NCBI GenBank assembly: GCA_903889905.1
Contig: CAISZI010000035.1
Coordinates: 1-43,816 of the forward strand
Source: Candidatus Wirthbacteria bacterium
Lineage (GTDB): Bacteria > Patescibacteriota > CG2-30-54-11
Direction of reading: 5' to 3'
DNA: 43,816 bases
Shown here: positions 4,633 through 30,974 of the stretch, piece after piece
How positions within the stretch are numbered: position 1 is the stretch's first letter
How the letters are laid out: every line of letters starts with the position of its first letter
Program-made: the position numbers and the translations under genes
Notes under the pieces: model-generated
Told to the model about the DNA's origin: nothing
Database searches by the model: none
Seen by the model: the letters and a program-made list of their open reading frames with translations, nothing else

Positions 4633-5069
4633 AAAGCAATTTCGACCCACGCTTTCAACCAGAACTGACACCCCAACAAATGCTCGAATTGGGTGTCTTT
4701 GGCGGGTTGTACTTTGCCAGCATTCCAGAGGAGTTTCCCGCCTCCTGGTTTGCCAACGCGAAACTTTCTCAAGATGGCGCGACGCACGCAGAGCTCAACT
4801 ACTTCGGAGTAAACGCCAGTCAGCCACATGCCCTCTGGCAAGCCAAAGGCTGGATTCATCCACAGGATCCGCTGGGGTGGTTTCAGTGGTATTGCAGGTA
4901 TACCCTGGGACGCAGGTCAGATGACGATGATCGGCAAATCAAAAGATGGCTTGCAATGCGCCGACATATCATGCAAATTAAGAAAAATTGCTGCCCCGGT
5001 GATCTTGGCTGTCGCCCCAGACAAAGACAGGCGCTGCTGCACTGGGCTTATGATGCGAGAATATTATAA
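4629..5069 (+). CDS. Conserved protein of unnamed family, coupled to tspO
   Basis: A 146-residue soluble protein with a compact conserved pattern: LTPQQMLELGVFGG near residue 13, EEFPASWF, LNYFGVNASQP, KGWIHPQDPLGWFQWYCRYT, and a C-terminal RRHIMQIKKN-C-PGD and RPRQRQALLHWAYD. I recognise this aromatic-rich pattern as a widespread family with no assigned function. Three Trp/Tyr clusters and a basic Arg-rich tail might suit a nucleic-acid or cofactor partner, but that is a guess. The start is GTG at 4629 inside the tspO stop (4-nt overlap), so the two are translationally coupled. Confidence 0.7.
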   Translation: MKSNFDPRFQPELTPQQMLELGVFGGLYFASIPEEFPASWFANAKLSQDGATHAELNYFGVNASQPHALWQAKGWIHPQDPLGWFQWYCRYTLGRRSDDDDRQIKRWLAMRRHIMQIKKNCCPGDLGCRPRQRQALLHWAYDARIL

Positions 5070-9147: not shown

Positions 9148-11709
9148 CTAAGCTTTTTTCGCCGTGTGTTTGTGCCACATCTTCAATAGCTCAAACCACA
9201 GGATGCTCGACACGGCTGCTCCCGCACAAATCAGGAAGTCACCTAAGTGCAACGAATCGAAAAGGAATAGCTTCTGCAAAAAAGGCACATTGAGGACAAG
9301 GGTCAAAAAAAGCGCGACTCCACCTACCAGAATCCACAACGATTTGTTGGGCTGACGGATGGTAGTCAAAATAGTGTTGTCCCAGGAACGGTTGACCAGA
9401 ATCAGGCAGACGTTGGCGATGACCAACGCTGTAAATGCCAGTGTACGGGCGTCCACTTCGCCAGCACCTGTATAAAGTCCAATCGCATAAATCGCCGTCG
9501 TGATCACCAGCACGGTCGCGCCCTGCAGGATACTGAGCGTCACCATACTGCGACTGAACAAACGGTCTTTGGGATTACGCGGCGGACGCTCCATAATACC
9601 CTTTTCCTCGGGTTCCGCTTCAAACACCACCGAGCAGGCCGGATCGATAATAAGTTCCAGAAAAACAATGTGCACCGGCATCAGGATGAGCGGCCACTTC
9701 AACAGAACGGGAATCAGCGACAGGCCCGCAATCGGTACGTGAATGGCGAAAATGTAGGCCATGGCTTTGCGGATATTGGTAAAAATCCGACGGCCCATGC
9801 GCACCGCGGCGACAATGGAAGAAAAATCATCGTCAAGCAAAACCAGTGACGCCGATTCACGCGCCACATCCGTACCCCGTTTACCCATGGCAATACCGAT
9901 GTGAGCGGCTTTGAGAGCCGGCGCATCATTGACACCATCACCGGTCATGGCCACGATTTCACCATTGGCCTTGAGCGCATTGACGATGTGCAGCTTTTGT
10001 TCGGGCACCACACGGGCAAAAATGTTGACGTCCTTGATCTTTTCCCGCATTTCTGTTTCGCTCATGGCCGAAAGTTGAGGACCAGTGATGACCTTGTCAC
10101 GGGGAAATAATCCGATCTGCTCGGCGATGTTTTGCGCCGTGCCCGGGTAATCCCCAGTAATCATGACGACGCGAATCCCGGCAGTATAACATTCCTTCAC
10201 CGCTGCTGGCACTGTCGGACGAATCGGGTCAATAAAGGCAATCAAACCAATGAATTGGAAGTCAAAATCGTGCTGTTCTTCCGGCAGTTTCGTTTCACTG
10301 AAATGAGATTTGGCCACGCCCAGGACGCGCAAGCCGCGGCTGCTGAGGGCGATGACTGATTTTTCCATACTTTGAAAAGCCTCCCGGCTCATATGGCAAA
10401 GATCACCGATCGCTTCCGGCGAACCTTTGGCCGCGATCACATAATCATGGCCATTGGGCGACTGCCACACATGCGACAGTGCCAGCAGTTTGTCCGAAAG
10501 CGGATATTCCCGGATCAGTTGCCAGTCGTGATGCAGGTGTTCGGTGTGGCGCAGGAAATTTTCGCCAAAGCTACGGATTGCCTTTTCCATCGGGTCAAAC
10601 GGGTCTTTCTGGCTAGCCAGGACGCTGTACTCGGCCAGGGCGTGATACGTCTCGGGAAAAAGCTCGGCTTTGTCTTTGGGATCGATGATAAAGAATTGAT
10701 CACCCACGCAAAGTTCTGCCATGGTCATTTTGTTTTGCGTCAGTGTTCCGGTTTTGTCTGTGCAAAGTACCGTGGCCGCACCTAGTGTCTCGATGGCCGG
10801 CACGCGTCGGGTCAAGACATTTTTGAGTGACATACGCCAGGCACCAAGTGCCAAAAAAATGGTCAAGACGACGGGAAATTCCTCCGGCAGCGTCGCCATG
10901 GCCAGTGCAATGCCGGCGAGAAATCCCTGGATCCAGTCGCCGCGTGTCAGGCCAAACACCACGACAACCAGGCCACAAAGGCTGAGACCAAAAATGGCCA
11001 GCTTTTTGACCAGGGCATCGGTTTCTTTCTGCAGATTAGTGTCTTCCGACTCGATCGCGAACAAGGCTTTACCGATTTTGCCGATTTCGGTGTTGCCACC
11101 AATCGAAATTACTTCGACAATTCCCTGCCCGCGAACGACCATGGTACCAGAAAAAACATACGGAAGATCGTCGCCGCCAGGACGGTTTTCACTCTTTTCA
11201 TCAGGAAAGCGTGAACGCTTACGCACAGATAACGATTCGCCGGTGAGCAATGATTCATCCACAAGCAAATTGGTACTATCGATCAAAATCGCGTCTGCTG
11301 CCACACGCCCACCTTCGGAGATCACCATCAGATCGCCGCGCACCACGTCTTTGCCGGAAACGGTCATTTCATTGCCGTCACGAATCACCGCTGCCCGCGG
11401 GCTGGATAAATCTTTTAATGCATCCAGCGCCCGTTCAGTTTTCCACTCTTGAAAAAAAGTAATGCCAATCACCACCACCACAAACCCCAGCAGCATGATG
11501 CCTTCCTGAATATCGCCCAAGACAAAGTACAGCAGCCCACCACCGACAAGAAGCAGAAACATCGGCTCGCTGATCACTTCCTTGAAAATCGCCAAAAAAT
11601 TTCTTTTTTTGGCTGCCGGCAGCTCATTGTAGCCTTCGTTCAAATGCCGCTGATCGACTTCCGCCTGTGTCAAACCAGAAAGCGTATGAATGTCCAGATT
11701 GGCCTGCAT
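9148..11709 (-). CDS. Type II (P2) cation-transporting P-type ATPase
   Basis: An 853-residue ATPase with the full P-type order: actuator TGES at 156-159, helix-4 motif PEEFP at 275-279, phosphorylation motif CTDKTGTLT with Asp318, then MTGDGVNDAPALK and GTDVARESASLVLLDDDFSS, and four C-terminal helices. It resembles calcium pumps, but helix 4 has PEEFP where calcium pumps usually have PEGLP. The helix-5 NxxE of SERCA is replaced by FAIHVPIAG, and helix 6 reads ELIIDPACSVVFE. The ion is therefore uncertain. GAGGTGA lies just before the ATG, and a TTGACG/CATACT promoter is at 11740-11768. Confidence 0.93.
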   Translation of the reverse strand: MQANLDIHTLSGLTQAEVDQRHLNEGYNELPAAKKRNFLAIFKEVISEPMFLLLVGGGLLYFVLGDIQEGIMLLGFVVVVIGITFFQEWKTERALDALKDLSSPRAAVIRDGNEMTVSGKDVVRGDLMVISEGGRVAADAILIDSTNLLVDESLLTGESLSVRKRSRFPDEKSENRPGGDDLPYVFSGTMVVRGQGIVEVISIGGNTEIGKIGKALFAIESEDTNLQKETDALVKKLAIFGLSLCGLVVVVFGLTRGDWIQGFLAGIALAMATLPEEFPVVLTIFLALGAWRMSLKNVLTRRVPAIETLGAATVLCTDKTGTLTQNKMTMAELCVGDQFFIIDPKDKAELFPETYHALAEYSVLASQKDPFDPMEKAIRSFGENFLRHTEHLHHDWQLIREYPLSDKLLALSHVWQSPNGHDYVIAAKGSPEAIGDLCHMSREAFQSMEKSVIALSSRGLRVLGVAKSHFSETKLPEEQHDFDFQFIGLIAFIDPIRPTVPAAVKECYTAGIRVVMITGDYPGTAQNIAEQIGLFPRDKVITGPQLSAMSETEMREKIKDVNIFARVVPEQKLHIVNALKANGEIVAMTGDGVNDAPALKAAHIGIAMGKRGTDVARESASLVLLDDDFSSIVAAVRMGRRIFTNIRKAMAYIFAIHVPIAGLSLIPVLLKWPLILMPVHIVFLELIIDPACSVVFEAEPEEKGIMERPPRNPKDRLFSRSMVTLSILQGATVLVITTAIYAIGLYTGAGEVDARTLAFTALVIANVCLILVNRSWDNTILTTIRQPNKSLWILVGGVALFLTLVLNVPFLQKLFLFDSLHLGDFLICAGAAVSSILWFELLKMWHKHTAKKA

Positions 11710-18102: not shown

Positions 18103-18216
18103 TTTCACCCGAGCTTTGGCTTTGTTTTACCTACCAGAAATGGTATGTTTTGGCAGGTTAAATGTGTTAGTGGATTGCCGACCAAAACATCCACCGACTC
18201 CAGCCAAGGACAAGTC

Positions 18217-19503
18217 ATGACTCCCACCCGCCTAGTTAAGTTACAAATCGATGCCAATCAAGTGGCTTTGCCCATGATCAAAAGTACTGCCGGTGCTGAT
18301 GGCATTGATATCAGCAAACTCAAAGCCTCCACCGGCCTGGTGACCATGGATCCTGGTTTTGCCAATACCGGATCCTGTGTCAGTTCAATCTCACTGGTGG
18401 ATGGGGACAAGGGCATTTTGCGCTACCGCGGTTATGACATTGAAGAACTCGCGGCGCATTGCTCCTTTGTCGAAGTGGCTTATCTGCTGATACGGGGCAA
18501 TCTCCCAAATCAGCAAGAACTCCATACCTGGAGCGAACGCCTCAATAAGCATTCGCTCATTCACGAAGACATGAAAAGCTTTTTTAACCGCTATCCACCC
18601 AACGCGCATCCCATGTCCATCCTGTCCGCCATGGTGACATCGCTGGCGAGCTTTTACCCGCACATCATGCAAGGTGACCCGAATTTTGATACTACTGCGG
18701 CGAGATTGATCGCCAAGGTCCGCACCATCGCCGCCTTTTCTTACAAAAAATCCCAAGGTGACCCGGTCGTCTATCCACGTCAGGATTTGCCTTATTGTGC
18801 CAATTTTCTCAATATGATGTTTGACTCACCTGTCAAAAGCTATGTTATTGTGCCGGAAGTGATTGCTGCCCTCAACCAACTGCTGATCCTGCATGCCGAC
18901 CACGAACAAAACTGTTCCACATCAGCCGTCCGTCTGGTGGCCAGTTCCGGGGCCAATTTGTATGCCAGCATTGCTGCCGGAATATCCGCACTCTGGGGTC
19001 CACTCCATGGTGGCGCCAACCAGGCAGTGATTGAGATGCTCACCAGTATCCAGACAAACGGTGGCGACGTACACCATGTCATTGAACGGGCCAAGGATAA
19101 AACGGATCCCTTCCGTCTCATGGGTTTTGGCCACGCCGTGTACAAAAGCTACGATCCGCGTGCCAAAATTACCAAACAACTGTGTGATACTCTGTTACCC
19201 AAACTCAACGTCCATGACCCGCTGCTCGAGATCGCGCTTGAATTGGAACAGGCTGCACTGCGGGATGACTACTTCGTCGAACGCAAACTTTATCCCAATG
19301 TGGATTTTTATTCTGGCATTCTTTATCGCGCCATGGGCATCCCCACCAACATGCTGACCGTCATGTTCGCCATCGGCAGGCTGCCTGGCTGGATAGCGCA
19401 CTGGAAGGAAGCAACCGAAAGTAAAGACCAAAAAATCTGGCGGCCTCGGCAAATCTACATTGGACCAACACGACAAAAATTCGTTGCCATTGACAAACGA
19501 TAA
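18217..19503 (+). CDS. gltA: Citrate synthase (type II)
   Basis: 428 residues from the ATG at 18217, preceded by CAAGGACAAGTC; an in-frame ATG at 18145 would add 24 unrelated residues. It condenses acetyl-CoA with oxaloacetate. The catalytic triad aligns with E. coli GltA: His in LHADHEQNCST (His226/His229), His306 in MGFGHAVYKSYDPRA, and Asp363 in NVDFYSGI. The residue after His306 is Ala where most type II enzymes have Arg (GHRVYK). The N-terminal domain (GLVTMDPGFANTGSCVSSIS) is typical. No aconitase or isocitrate dehydrogenase gene is nearby. It could instead be a 2-methylcitrate synthase. Confidence 0.9.
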   Translation: MTPTRLVKLQIDANQVALPMIKSTAGADGIDISKLKASTGLVTMDPGFANTGSCVSSISLVDGDKGILRYRGYDIEELAAHCSFVEVAYLLIRGNLPNQQELHTWSERLNKHSLIHEDMKSFFNRYPPNAHPMSILSAMVTSLASFYPHIMQGDPNFDTTAARLIAKVRTIAAFSYKKSQGDPVVYPRQDLPYCANFLNMMFDSPVKSYVIVPEVIAALNQLLILHADHEQNCSTSAVRLVASSGANLYASIAAGISALWGPLHGGANQAVIEMLTSIQTNGGDVHHVIERAKDKTDPFRLMGFGHAVYKSYDPRAKITKQLCDTLLPKLNVHDPLLEIALELEQAALRDDYFVERKLYPNVDFYSGILYRAMGIPTNMLTVMFAIGRLPGWIAHWKEATESKDQKIWRPRQIYIGPTRQKFVAIDKR

Positions 19504-26790: not shown

Positions 26791-26823
26791 CGCTACCCAC
26801 TGCAGACTGGGTAGCGTGTTTTG
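26791..26823. terminator. Bidirectional intrinsic terminator
   Basis: CGCTACCCA (26791-26799) pairs perfectly with TGGGTAGCG (26808-26816), followed on the plus strand by TGTTTTGG and preceded by AAAAAAATCAAATG, which gives a U-run for the minus strand. It lies between two convergent operons (DHA2 efflux and the HAAS/PadR operon). Confidence 0.85.
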
Positions 26824-26849: not shown

Positions 26850-28754
26850 TTATTGATTGATCCAAGTGATGTTAACAACCATTCTGTCAGGCAGGTCAGC
26901 CAATTTTGCAGTTTTGCCACTGGCTAAATCGACGATAACTGCTTTACCATGATCAGCGATAACCAGCCGCTTTTGCTTGTCCAGGGACAGGACTGATGGG
27001 TAATAACCTGGTGATGACATCCATTTCAATATGGTACGTACTTGTCCGTTGCTACTTTGTTGTAAGTTGTGTACGTTCCAAAAATCATCCTGAAAGTAAA
27101 AACTGCCGTAATCTCCAACTCCCCACTGTTGGCCCATGGCACTGTCATAAAAAGCCTGAATACCACCTGCCAATTGATAAGGTGAAGCAAGCCACGCCAT
27201 CAATGTAGTGCCGCTAGTAGGTATTGCAAAGCGACTTGCAATCACGTCCTGATAAAAGCCATCATAAATCGAGTAATTCATACTATTATTGACAGCAGGC
27301 AGTGTTTGGATTTCTTTATAACCAAGCGGTCTGCAATCGAAAAGCTGACATGTTTGTTCATTGCGCGCGACAAGCTTGGCCGAATCCAAATCATAAAGAT
27401 ACTTATTAATGACGGGATTATCAGCATCACCATCGGTAGTGGTTATACCAATGAGCAGCTGACCCGGAGTTTTAGACCAAACAACACTAGTGGTACCGGT
27501 TTTCGTCAATGGAACATCGTGTAGGACATCCTGTGACCACTTTTGGGTAGTTATATCGTAGACAAACCAGGCATCATGGGAAGCACCATGAATACCATCA
27601 AAAGTGCTCAGCAACAACTTCTGCTGCGATGCCGATGAGGCGACAATACCAACAATACTATTGGTAGTTGGCAAATCACCTAACTCAATAATTTTGGCTC
27701 CATCTAGTTGCTCCAGAAGCACATTCTTGGACTGTTGCTGGACCAAATAAATTCCAGCACTATTACGATCACGCACCATGTCAAATTGTCCGGTTTTGAG
27801 CACCGTTCCATCTGCCCGAACTAGACGCGACGTAATCTGATCAGGAGATGGCCTATTTGTTAGCGGAAATACTGTTTGCAATAAGAAAATTGGTTCCTCT
27901 CCCTGCCAAGTAATATCCGACAGGACTGCATTAGTTTTGAGTGGATTCCATCCATTAGCAACATAACGATAAGCAATGACACTACAGGTCAAAAGGACTG
28001 CGAAAAGTAAAAGCCCGGCAGACGATAGGAGAATACGAAAGGTAAACTTATTGCCCTCTGTTTGATCGACTTGCCTGAAAATATATCTGCCTGCCAACAT
28101 GCGACTTAGAAGGATCAATCCAAAATTAATGGCTATCACGAACATCATTACCAAACTATTTCCGAGTAATCCTGTGTAGAAAACATGTCGATTAATCGGT
28201 TGACTAACTAACTGAATTGCTTTTTGATCAGAAATAATGCCGAGACAGAATATAGCGATCAAAAAACTGGCAAAAACAACGGCCTTGATACTATCCCGCA
28301 AATTCAGTTTGCCGGCAGCCAACCCAACTCCCTGACCAATCATCAACAATTCCGGCACCAGAACAAAGGCCACCAGAAACGCATCTGGTATCCCACCTTG
28401 AGGGGAAATAAACAAACTAAATACACTAGGAACCACAAACCAGGCCAACAAACTCATGACTGCCAATATCAGCCCCCATATAAACGGACGAAAGTACATG
28501 AGCGGCCCGATTATCGGAATCTTTTCATACTTGCGGTGTACCTGATGTAATTCGTTACCGACCATGGCGGGATCTCCAAATGATTGTTGAATTATTTCCT
28601 TGATTTCACTATCTTGCTTTCCCTGCAACTGCAGCGAATGGGATTTTTCGAAACAATGCGATTCCAGTTCGCGACGAATTTCATCGCTTGCCGTTTCAGG
28701 CAGCCGCGCGCTCAACACAACCTGACCAATCAGATCATCAAAATCAGTTTGCAT
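26850..28754 (-). CDS. HAAS-domain membrane sensor-like protein, paralogue 1
   Basis: A 634-residue protein in three parts. Residues 1-75 form a cytoplasmic helical HAAS / permease-prefix-like domain (LPETASDEIRRELESHCFEK, QQSFGDPAMVGNELHQVHR). Residues 89-262 hold about five membrane helices. Residues 265-634 are an extracytoplasmic region of repeated short strands with ADG/DLDSAK-type turns, resembling a beta-propeller, ending VIADHGKAVIVDLASGKTAK. The same order and end sequence occur in the gene at 29133-30914. HAAS domains are commonly encoded beside PadR regulators, as here. It lies 14 nt after padR in the operon. The function is unknown; sensing of an envelope ligand is an inference. 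Confidence 0.7.
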   Translation of the reverse strand: MQTDFDDLIGQVVLSARLPETASDEIRRELESHCFEKSHSLQLQGKQDSEIKEIIQQSFGDPAMVGNELHQVHRKYEKIPIIGPLMYFRPFIWGLILAVMSLLAWFVVPSVFSLFISPQGGIPDAFLVAFVLVPELLMIGQGVGLAAGKLNLRDSIKAVVFASFLIAIFCLGIISDQKAIQLVSQPINRHVFYTGLLGNSLVMMFVIAINFGLILLSRMLAGRYIFRQVDQTEGNKFTFRILLSSAGLLLFAVLLTCSVIAYRYVANGWNPLKTNAVLSDITWQGEEPIFLLQTVFPLTNRPSPDQITSRLVRADGTVLKTGQFDMVRDRNSAGIYLVQQQSKNVLLEQLDGAKIIELGDLPTTNSIVGIVASSASQQKLLLSTFDGIHGASHDAWFVYDITTQKWSQDVLHDVPLTKTGTTSVVWSKTPGQLLIGITTTDGDADNPVINKYLYDLDSAKLVARNEQTCQLFDCRPLGYKEIQTLPAVNNSMNYSIYDGFYQDVIASRFAIPTSGTTLMAWLASPYQLAGGIQAFYDSAMGQQWGVGDYGSFYFQDDFWNVHNLQQSSNGQVRTILKWMSSPGYYPSVLSLDKQKRLVIADHGKAVIVDLASGKTAKLADLPDRMVVNITWINQ

Positions 28755-28768
28755 CTTTTTCCTTGTGC

Positions 28769-29098
28769 TTAAGCCAGGCTTAAAACGTGGTTCACGGCAT
28801 GACTGAATTCCCGCCAGTCTTTGACTCCCTGCGCCAGCGCTTGGCTGCCTTCGGGTGTCAATTTGTAGTACTTACGATCGGGTTTGCCTTCCTGCGGGAC
28901 CCAGTGACTTGAAAGCAAGCCAAGCTTTTCCATTTCGTGTAATGCCGGATAAATACTGCCTTCGCCAAACTGCAACGCTTCCTGACTCTGGTCGGCAATC
29001 GACTTAATGATCTGGTAGCCATACATCTCACCGTCTTTGAGCACAGCCAGGATCAAGTTTTTGGTTGATCCCTTGATTAACTCTTTGGAAAATTTCAT
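28769..29098 (-). CDS. PadR family transcription regulator
   Basis: 109 residues from the ATG at 29098, with TTGAGGTTTAGT before it; an in-frame start at 29143 would overlap the upstream gene and lacks a ribosome site. The winged helix is clear: NLILAVLKDGEMYGYQIIKS (residues 14-33), FGEGSIYPALHEMEKLGLL (recognition helix) and GKPDRKYYKLTPEG (wing). PadR proteins repress by binding palindromes and are released by ligands or by partner proteins. Its place between two HAAS membrane paralogues, in an operon starting with a palindrome over the promoter, suggests autoregulation. Confidence 0.92.
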   Translation of the reverse strand: MKFSKELIKGSTKNLILAVLKDGEMYGYQIIKSIADQSQEALQFGEGSIYPALHEMEKLGLLSSHWVPQEGKPDRKYYKLTPEGSQALAQGVKDWREFSHAVNHVLSLA

Positions 29099-29132
29099 AC
29101 TAAACCTCAATGATAATGAATGATTGGGAAAA

Positions 29133-30914
29133 CTATTTGGCAATGAATGAAGACAATTCGTAACCCGCCCCTGTTGGCAGATCGGTCAATTTGGCCACCT
29201 GGCGTGTGGCAGGATCGACAATCATGAGCTGGTTGTGGTCGGCAATCATCAACTTGCCGGAGTCGGCAATGGATTCAACAAGAGGCAATTCTTCAGCCGT
29301 GGTGTGCCAGCTCAACACAGTCTCCGTCCTGCCATTGGCGTCGGTACGCCGCAGTTCGTGTCCGTTGGCATACCCCTCTATCAGCATCAAATTGGCATAC
29401 ACGCCTGTTCCTGTAATTGGAGCGTACCTGGCGGACGACTCCCAAGTCTGATAGATGGAAAATGGAAATGCCAACATAGCCAGCATCAAATTATTGCTCC
29501 CATGCAATAACTCAAGCCGTACGGAAGGGCTCTGTTGTAACGGCATATCCCATTGCATGGTATAAGAAAAATGATTTTGGGAATCATTAAAAGCGGATGA
29601 TGTCCCTTCCCTTCCTCCCGAAGTCTTGGTTACCTGGCTGTGCAACACACTCTGATTTGTCGTGAGATCGACCCGATACCAACTGTAAAGGTAGAGGTCA
29701 GATCCTGGCGCGGGTTCAATCAAGGTGACATCCAATTGCGTCGGGGAGGCATATCCTATCATCACCGCATGCGAACCATCTCCACCGATTTGGCCGGCAT
29801 TGGGTAACAACAATAGCTCTTTGACTTGATCCCCTTCCAGTTGTTGCAAATGCATTCCGTTTTTTTCCCACGCAGTGATGTAAGTTTTTCCAGTTACCTC
29901 CACACGGTGTACTTCAAAATCGCCTTGTTTGACCACTTGTCCTGTGGCCCGATACAGCCGATAACCCAAAACTTGCGAACCAGTCTGAGGAGATATCAAG
30001 CGCTGATCAATCATGATATAGGGCACTTGACTACCCCAGGCAATGTTAGCCAGACGGGTATTGGCCACAACCGGCGAAGAACGGGTCAAATTAATGCGCA
30101 CCAGGATAATAAGCAACAGCAATCCCAGGGCTATTCCAATTAATTTAAAACTGGATTTCCAGACTAAAATCGTCGCTTGCTCAACTTTTCGAGTCGACAA
30201 TGATTGCATCACAAGCCGTGCCCACACTCTGCGTCCAATCAAGCCCGCAGCCATAAACACTATTAAATAGATGATCGCGATCAATGCCATGTAGCCATCT
30301 AACGCTGTAACTTTACCTACCTGCTCAATCAACGATGGTGCCCCGCTGGCAGCAGACGGTGATCGTTCCATGTAGGTGACAAAGAATTCAGAAAAAACAA
30401 TTAAAGCAGCACCCAATAACATCAACGTCGAGTAGGCAAAAGTTTTGACAGTATCCAACCATCCTATACGCTGCAAACCCAGGTAACATCCCTCAAAGAA
30501 GGCCACCACAAAAGGGCAGATCAGCAGTAATGCTTGCGTCCAGATGGGAATGGGTGTGGTTGAACGCAAAAAAGGCAAGTAAACAAGATACAAAGCCACA
30601 AAAAAGATCAGATTAATTACGCCCAGCTTAAACCCGCGGACAAAAGGCCTGAACCCGACAAGCGGACCAATAATCGGGAGTCGCTCCCCAGGACGATGGA
30701 CCTGATGAAACTCAGCGGCAATGTGTTGCGGGTCACCAAACGACGCGCGTACGTCTGCTTGTATCTCATCCTCTGATTTGCCTTGGAGCCGCAGTTCGTA
30801 GGACTTTTCATAAAAATGTGACCCCAGTTCACGCGCAATCTCCTGCTGTTCGTGCCGCGACAAAAGTGAAGCGCTGGCAATCTCCAAAGCAAATGGATGA
30901 AAAGGGTCGGCCAT
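29133..30914 (-). CDS. HAAS-domain membrane sensor-like protein, paralogue 2
   Basis: Residues are numbered from the ATG at 30914 (MADPFHPF), preceded by AAGGTATAAATTC; earlier in-frame Met codons fall in the operator and are rejected. The N-terminal HAAS-like domain reads IARELGSHFYEKSYELRLQG and RASFGDPQHIAAEFHQVHR, followed by GERLPIIGPLVGFRPFVRGF (paralogue 1: IPIIGPLMYFRPFIWGL). Five or so membrane helices come next, then an outer strand-rich domain ending LMIADHNQLMIVDPATRQVA, parallel to paralogue 1. It is the first gene of the operon with padR (34 nt on) and paralogue 1. The two paralogues are clearly diverged, so the duplication is old. Confidence 0.7.
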   Translation of the reverse strand: MADPFHPFALEIASASLLSRHEQQEIARELGSHFYEKSYELRLQGKSEDEIQADVRASFGDPQHIAAEFHQVHRPGERLPIIGPLVGFRPFVRGFKLGVINLIFFVALYLVYLPFLRSTTPIPIWTQALLLICPFVVAFFEGCYLGLQRIGWLDTVKTFAYSTLMLLGAALIVFSEFFVTYMERSPSAASGAPSLIEQVGKVTALDGYMALIAIIYLIVFMAAGLIGRRVWARLVMQSLSTRKVEQATILVWKSSFKLIGIALGLLLLIILVRINLTRSSPVVANTRLANIAWGSQVPYIMIDQRLISPQTGSQVLGYRLYRATGQVVKQGDFEVHRVEVTGKTYITAWEKNGMHLQQLEGDQVKELLLLPNAGQIGGDGSHAVMIGYASPTQLDVTLIEPAPGSDLYLYSWYRVDLTTNQSVLHSQVTKTSGGREGTSSAFNDSQNHFSYTMQWDMPLQQSPSVRLELLHGSNNLMLAMLAFPFSIYQTWESSARYAPITGTGVYANLMLIEGYANGHELRRTDANGRTETVLSWHTTAEELPLVESIADSGKLMIADHNQLMIVDPATRQVAKLTDLPTGAGYELSSFIAK

Positions 30915-30920
30915 GAATTT

Positions 30921-30974
30921 ATACCTTATGATACGATGCATATGCATCATAATCTAAGGTATAAAAACTGTCAA
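30921..30974 (-). promoter_or_regulatory. Near-consensus promoter with nested palindromic operator (PadR operon)
   Basis: On the minus strand TTGACA (30969-30974), exactly 17 nt, then TATGAT (30946-30951). A perfect 14-bp palindrome GATGCATATGCATC (30935-30948) overlaps the -10 and the expected start site. An outer dyad ATACCTTA / TAAGGTAT (30921-30928 and 30955-30962) encloses it. A strong promoter blocked by a dyad over the -10 is the layout expected for repression, most likely by the PadR protein of the operon. Confidence 0.75.

Follow-up and report, generated by a model that had tools for sequence, protein, structure and literature searches.

A predicted HAAS-PadR operon with two membrane receptors in a patescibacterial genome and a candidate operator shared with Clostridia

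Organization of the operon and its products

An operon running from a promoter through receptor A, padR and receptor B to a terminator lies on the minus strand of a 43,816-nucleotide stretch of Candidatus Wirthbacteria DNA, the whole of which is referred to here as the window (Table 1). The genes are closely spaced, with gaps of 34 bases between receptor A and padR and 14 bases between padR and receptor B, and past the terminator-like hairpin lies an MFS-transporter-like gene in the opposite orientation. A preliminary description of the window had placed padR between two receptors in one operon, and all three genes were indeed found on this strand. The padR product matches the Pfam family PF03551 (E=1.3e-24), establishing the presence of a stand-alone PadR winged-helix gene. 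For receptor A, an open reading frame start at 30950 was rejected because it falls inside the predicted operator; the start was taken instead as the ATG at 30914, which has an AAGG ~9 nt upstream and gives an MADPF start that aligns with that of receptor B. The source genome is a 1.99-Mb draft in 66 contigs (97% complete), and most of the sampled genomes of the phylum measure 0.5–1.7 Mb, which suggests a reduced-genome lineage.

Table 1. Coordinates of the operon and its regulatory features in the window
Feature	Position	Strand	Remarks
-35 hexamer TTGACA	30969..30974	-	
-10 hexamer TATGAT	30946..30951	-	17-nt spacer
Predicted PadR operator, 42 bp	30921..30962	.	two inverted 21-bp units, 30921-30941 and 30942-30962
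Shine-Dalgarno-like AAGG of receptor A	30927-30924	-	
Receptor A (P0003, 593 aa)	29133..30914	-	HAAS 1-~76, five membrane helices ~98-276, outer domain ~277-593
padR (P0002, 109 aa)	28769..29098	-	winged-helix repressor
Receptor B (P0001, 634 aa)	26850..28754	-	HAAS 1-~76, five membrane helices ~91-260, outer domain ~261-634
Terminator-like hairpin, operon end	26791..26816	-	9 pairs

Receptors A and B are full-length paralogues that align by BLASTP over 644 columns with 25% identity (E=1e-49), a divergence from which the pair is judged to be old. Their HAAS regions (residues 1–90) are 46% identical (E=2e-27) and their outer domains 24% identical (77 bits, as against 21.6 for the best of 100 shuffles); comparison of the membrane parts alone returned no significant similarity. 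Both reading frames are intact, and the matching landmarks noted earlier are retained at both ends of both proteins. Hydropathy analysis identified five hydrophobic helices in each receptor, followed by a domain of 317–374 aa, and together with the whole-length alignment this upholds the shared plan of HAAS, about five membrane helices and outer domain that the preliminary description had proposed. The HAAS-like character of the N-termini was likewise confirmed: although the Pfam HAAS scores of the two receptors (1.4e-4 and 0.0098) both fall below the curated cut-off, residues 1–76 align with clostridial HAAS-transmembrane proteins in profile-profile comparison (E=4e-7, probability 92.8%), and a GDP motif is present in the HAAS of both. 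Lys and Arg residues in the short loops number 9 on the inner versus 3 on the outer side in receptor A, and 6 versus 2 in receptor B, and these positive charges favor an N-in/C-out topology for both proteins, which would place the N-terminus in the cytoplasm and the C-terminal domain outside.

Pfam searches of the two outer domains identified no family, no repeat and no catalytic domain, and neither receptor matched PspC, LiaI-LiaF-TM or Toastrack. Structure prediction, which had been raised earlier as a means of comparing these domains, yielded mainly propeller matches, on models of poor quality (pLDDT about 50): AlphaFold, supplied with a 2-row alignment, gave mean pLDDT values of 48.5 for the full-length protein and 54.3 for the outer domain alone, and Foldseek searches with both models returned chiefly beta-propellers at low TM-scores. 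The top PDB matches of the full-length model were beta-propellers, and so were the majority for the outer-domain model. A profile built from the outer-domain sequences also matched the designed propeller Pizza6 at E=4e-5, a value summed from weak matches to identical blades; single stretches reached only E ~9 or worse and the sum alone was significant, so this match was rejected as proof of an NHL propeller. Receptor B showed weak similarity to the PknD propeller (E=0.92), and a BLAST self-comparison for internal blades gave no output and was uninformative. The outer domains are taken here as probable beta-propellers.

A predicted operator conserved across phyla

The operon is preceded by a strong promoter (TTGACA-17-TATGAT, 30974–30946; 11 of 12 matches), and the predicted operator overlaps its -10 hexamer as well as receptor A's ribosome-binding site. 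The preliminary description had located an operator at this promoter, and a probable one is supported there; its extent is 42 bp rather than only the 14-bp core at 30935–30948, and 34 of the 42 positions are self-complementary. The site lies within a 48-bp palindrome (30918–30965) that is the best ungapped palindrome in the window, scoring 14.0 as compared with a maximum of 12.5 in 40 Markov-simulated windows. When scored with a 21-bp matrix built from 24 clostridial sites, the two window units rank first and second in the 43.8 kb, at 20.7 and 13.7 bits, with the next site at 12.3. A scan of the source genome found only these two units matching without mismatch, the remainder lying at background, and the whole palindrome occurs once in this genome. 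The predicted target of PadR is therefore its own operon; a role for PadR as a global regulator was considered and is unsupported, the genome having no further good sites.

Relatives of this PadR that are 43–49% identical occur in Clostridia, where their genes adjoin genes for HAAS-5TM-outer-domain proteins. The operator sits at the same promoter position and with the same geometry in the window and in four clostridial padR-HAAS operons (loci L022, L094, L099 and L100): ATACCT (ATACAT in L022) starts 6 nt past TTGACA, and the -10 hexamer conforms to TAYRAT in L022, L067/L100, L094 and L099. As in the window, the L099 operator is a 42-bp palindrome. A pattern describing the operator had 82 matches in 394 clostridial genomes as opposed to 1 for a reversed control, which takes no account of promoters in general. 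padR starts at the site in 24 of 30 fetched clostridial matches, which are not 24 independent events since many of the genomes are interrelated. The gene after padR is HAAS-like in most cases, with all 6 that were tested exceeding the Pfam HAAS cut-off, and a Toastrack DUF4097 gene comes next in the one such locus read further. Because the window site contributed to the pattern, its selected columns are circular, and the independent evidence consists of the adjacency to padR and of the unselected columns, among which CGTGA and the distal AGGTAT are conserved too. By these sequence comparisons the predicted 42-bp operator is shown to be conserved across phyla; comparison with the clostridial sites strongly indicates its identity as an operator, and PadR very probably binds this symmetric site over the promoter.

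Two further copies were observed in other settings. One (L109, G623 C1, position 1501) has no adjoining padR, in a genome that carries a multi-receptor padR-HAAS cluster, and is possibly a further target of that genome's PadR. The other (L101, position 5091, minus strand, in G690) is a near-perfect 42-bp operator (40/42) that lies ~1.2 kb away from padR rather than immediately in front of it and is followed by no obvious gene.

Related systems and the distribution of the two-receptor design

Ravi et al. (2024, mSystems, PMC11237479) put forward HAAS as the relay to PadR, in a scheme offered as an alternative to two-component signaling, so that the basic model advanced in the preliminary description is already published. 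As in the dyad presented there, the window encodes an N-terminal HAAS on a multi-TM protein beside a stand-alone PadR-like wHTH protein, with a GxP motif represented in the window by GDP. The partners of HAAS named in that account are PspC, Toastrack, FtsX/MacB, FtsW/RodA, VanZ and several uncharacterized TM domains; neither a probable beta-propeller on the outer side nor an arrangement of two receptors around padR was encountered there. In Listeria, LltR represses its own padR-DUF1700-DUF4097 operon more than 100-fold (Hauf et al. 2019, PMC6624303), and the window's predicted design is similar in pairing an autorepressed PadR with a HAAS/DUF1700 membrane protein, whereas in the lltR operon padR comes first and is accompanied by one membrane protein and a separate Toastrack protein.

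A second HAAS-PadR operon is present in the same genome (G000 C31; L007, L014), with the order padR-HAAS-PspC-Toastrack DUF4097 and a TTGACA promoter overlapped by the palindrome ACCTACTATG-CATAA-CATAGTAGGT. Like the window operon, it is a HAAS-PadR module whose promoter carries a palindrome, but it differs in its PspC and Toastrack domains, in its PadR (32% identical) and in the palindrome itself. Since this second operon has padR-HAAS-PspC counterparts in each of the other two class genomes and a different palindrome, the window operon is, as judged by these comparisons, an additional, lineage-specific module.

The clostridial loci L094, L095, L099 and L100 share with the window the receptor plan and a related PadR (43–48%), and L094, L099 and L100 also share the operator and promoter geometry; however, padR comes first in all four, and their outer domains cannot be aligned with those of the window. 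Two full-length receptor paralogues, as in the window, are also encoded in L095, where the two HAAS-TM-outer-domain proteins downstream of padR can be aligned across 504 residues (28%, E=1e-38), and in L094, where several HAAS proteins come after padR and a pair of them gives an alignment of 515 residues (35%, E=4e-73). The order receptor then padR occurs in L023 and L024, and a Paludibacter MAG (L054) has the order HAAS-PspC, padR, HAAS-PspC-Toastrack, the first HAAS there being assigned by our own profile only. These loci bear out the expectation that receptor-type proteins co-occur with padR elsewhere, and the receptor pairs of L094 and L095, each behind one padR, together with the HAAS/padR/HAAS order of L054, weaken the earlier statement that no system with a duplicated receptor design had been described. 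The three-gene order thus has a parallel in L054, but the exact protein family was encountered in no other genome searched. No homologues of the receptors were found in 96 relatives or in either of the other class genomes; a sample of 380 phylum genomes gave none beyond one weak HAAS-only match, and none were detected on plasmids, or on viral contigs and genome contigs scanned with short exact peptide patterns, which miss distant relatives. Among the genomes searched, no other has so far shown a receptor-padR-receptor operon carrying these outer domains.

Clusters of four to five HAAS membrane proteins in tandem occur in G442 C38 and G600 C5, with one padR located in L097, and in L094 a lipoprotein-like, strand-rich gene, from position 5053 onward, lies between HAAS receptor genes and may encode a separate propeller-like outer partner.

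A proposed mechanism and its alternatives

We consider it likely that the operon forms a HAAS-PadR module that represses itself and has two membrane receptors that have diverged. Its PadR would cover the -10 box as two dimers, one per 21-bp unit, much as LmrR binds its operator as two dimers, and would keep expression of the whole operon low. With the HAAS domains predicted to lie in the cytoplasm, beneath five membrane helices and an outer domain that is probably a beta-propeller, an envelope signal meeting the outer domain would change the shape of HAAS, and the altered HAAS would then hold or alter PadR and open the promoter, following the published HAAS-PadR proposal. That HAAS is best conserved and the outer domains are freer to diverge accords with a scheme in which two different signals converge on a single repressor. 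As PadR has no predicted target other than its own operon, the membrane proteins would likely serve as sensor and output alike, and the receptors may also be effectors that stabilize the envelope.

The main rival explanation is that PadR senses a small molecule itself, as LmrR does, such that the membrane proteins are only regulated effectors, e.g. envelope-protecting ones, and HAAS has a structural and not a signaling role. The existence of drug-binding PadR proteins such as LmrR, the restriction of the predicted targets to the operon itself and the finding that the LltR-loss phenotype in Listeria stems from an overproduced DUF1700 membrane protein (PMC6624303) all agree with such a scheme, but HAAS is strongly tied to padR neighbors across phyla and is better conserved than any other part of the two receptors, and we regard this explanation as unlikely. 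Still less probable is that the operon is degenerate or a recently acquired duplicate, in which only one of the receptors functions while its copy drifts and has no input of its own; intact frames, landmarks kept at both ends, the age of the paralogues and the retention of comparable receptor pairs in Clostridia weigh against drift, even though the patchy distribution, with no homologues in the two other class genomes and a single weak HAAS-only match among 380 phylum genomes, speaks for it. An enzymatic or adhesive role for the outer domains (a propeller-type hydrolase or binding protein), with HAAS only coupling synthesis to demand, seems very improbable, for although the Foldseek matches include the propeller enzymes DPP4, paraoxonase and lasso-peptide isopeptidase, these share ~10% sequence identity with the outer domains, on poor models, and the domains contain no catalytic domain or Pfam family.

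Returning to the reading of an autorepressed module with two receptors, what is new here is an arrangement within the recently described HAAS-PadR form of membrane-to-gene signaling, the signaling type itself being already known, and the shared, predicted 42-bp operator is the most useful of the new results. It is enticing to speculate, though we hold this only tentatively and would sooner doubt it in full, that two HAAS receptors with diverged beta-propellers compete for one autorepressing PadR, affording kinase-free two-signal control in a reduced-genome bacterium, and that the 42-bp double operator is the cross-phylum signature of this HAAS-PadR branch. For a relay proposed as an alternative to two-component systems, the window operon offers a concrete case for study, and the combination of a defined cross-phylum 42-bp operator with a compact two-receptor operon allows one to ask what PadR binds and whether HAAS alters this.

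Elsewhere in the window, a citrate-synthase-like gene (18145–19503) and a large P-type ATPase-like gene (9148–11709) are present, though the genome otherwise looks like that of a reduced-genome lineage, and a perfect 26-bp palindrome, GCCACGTCGTTCGCGAACGACGTGGC (1901–1926), lies directly 3' of a tRNA gene (1815–1901).
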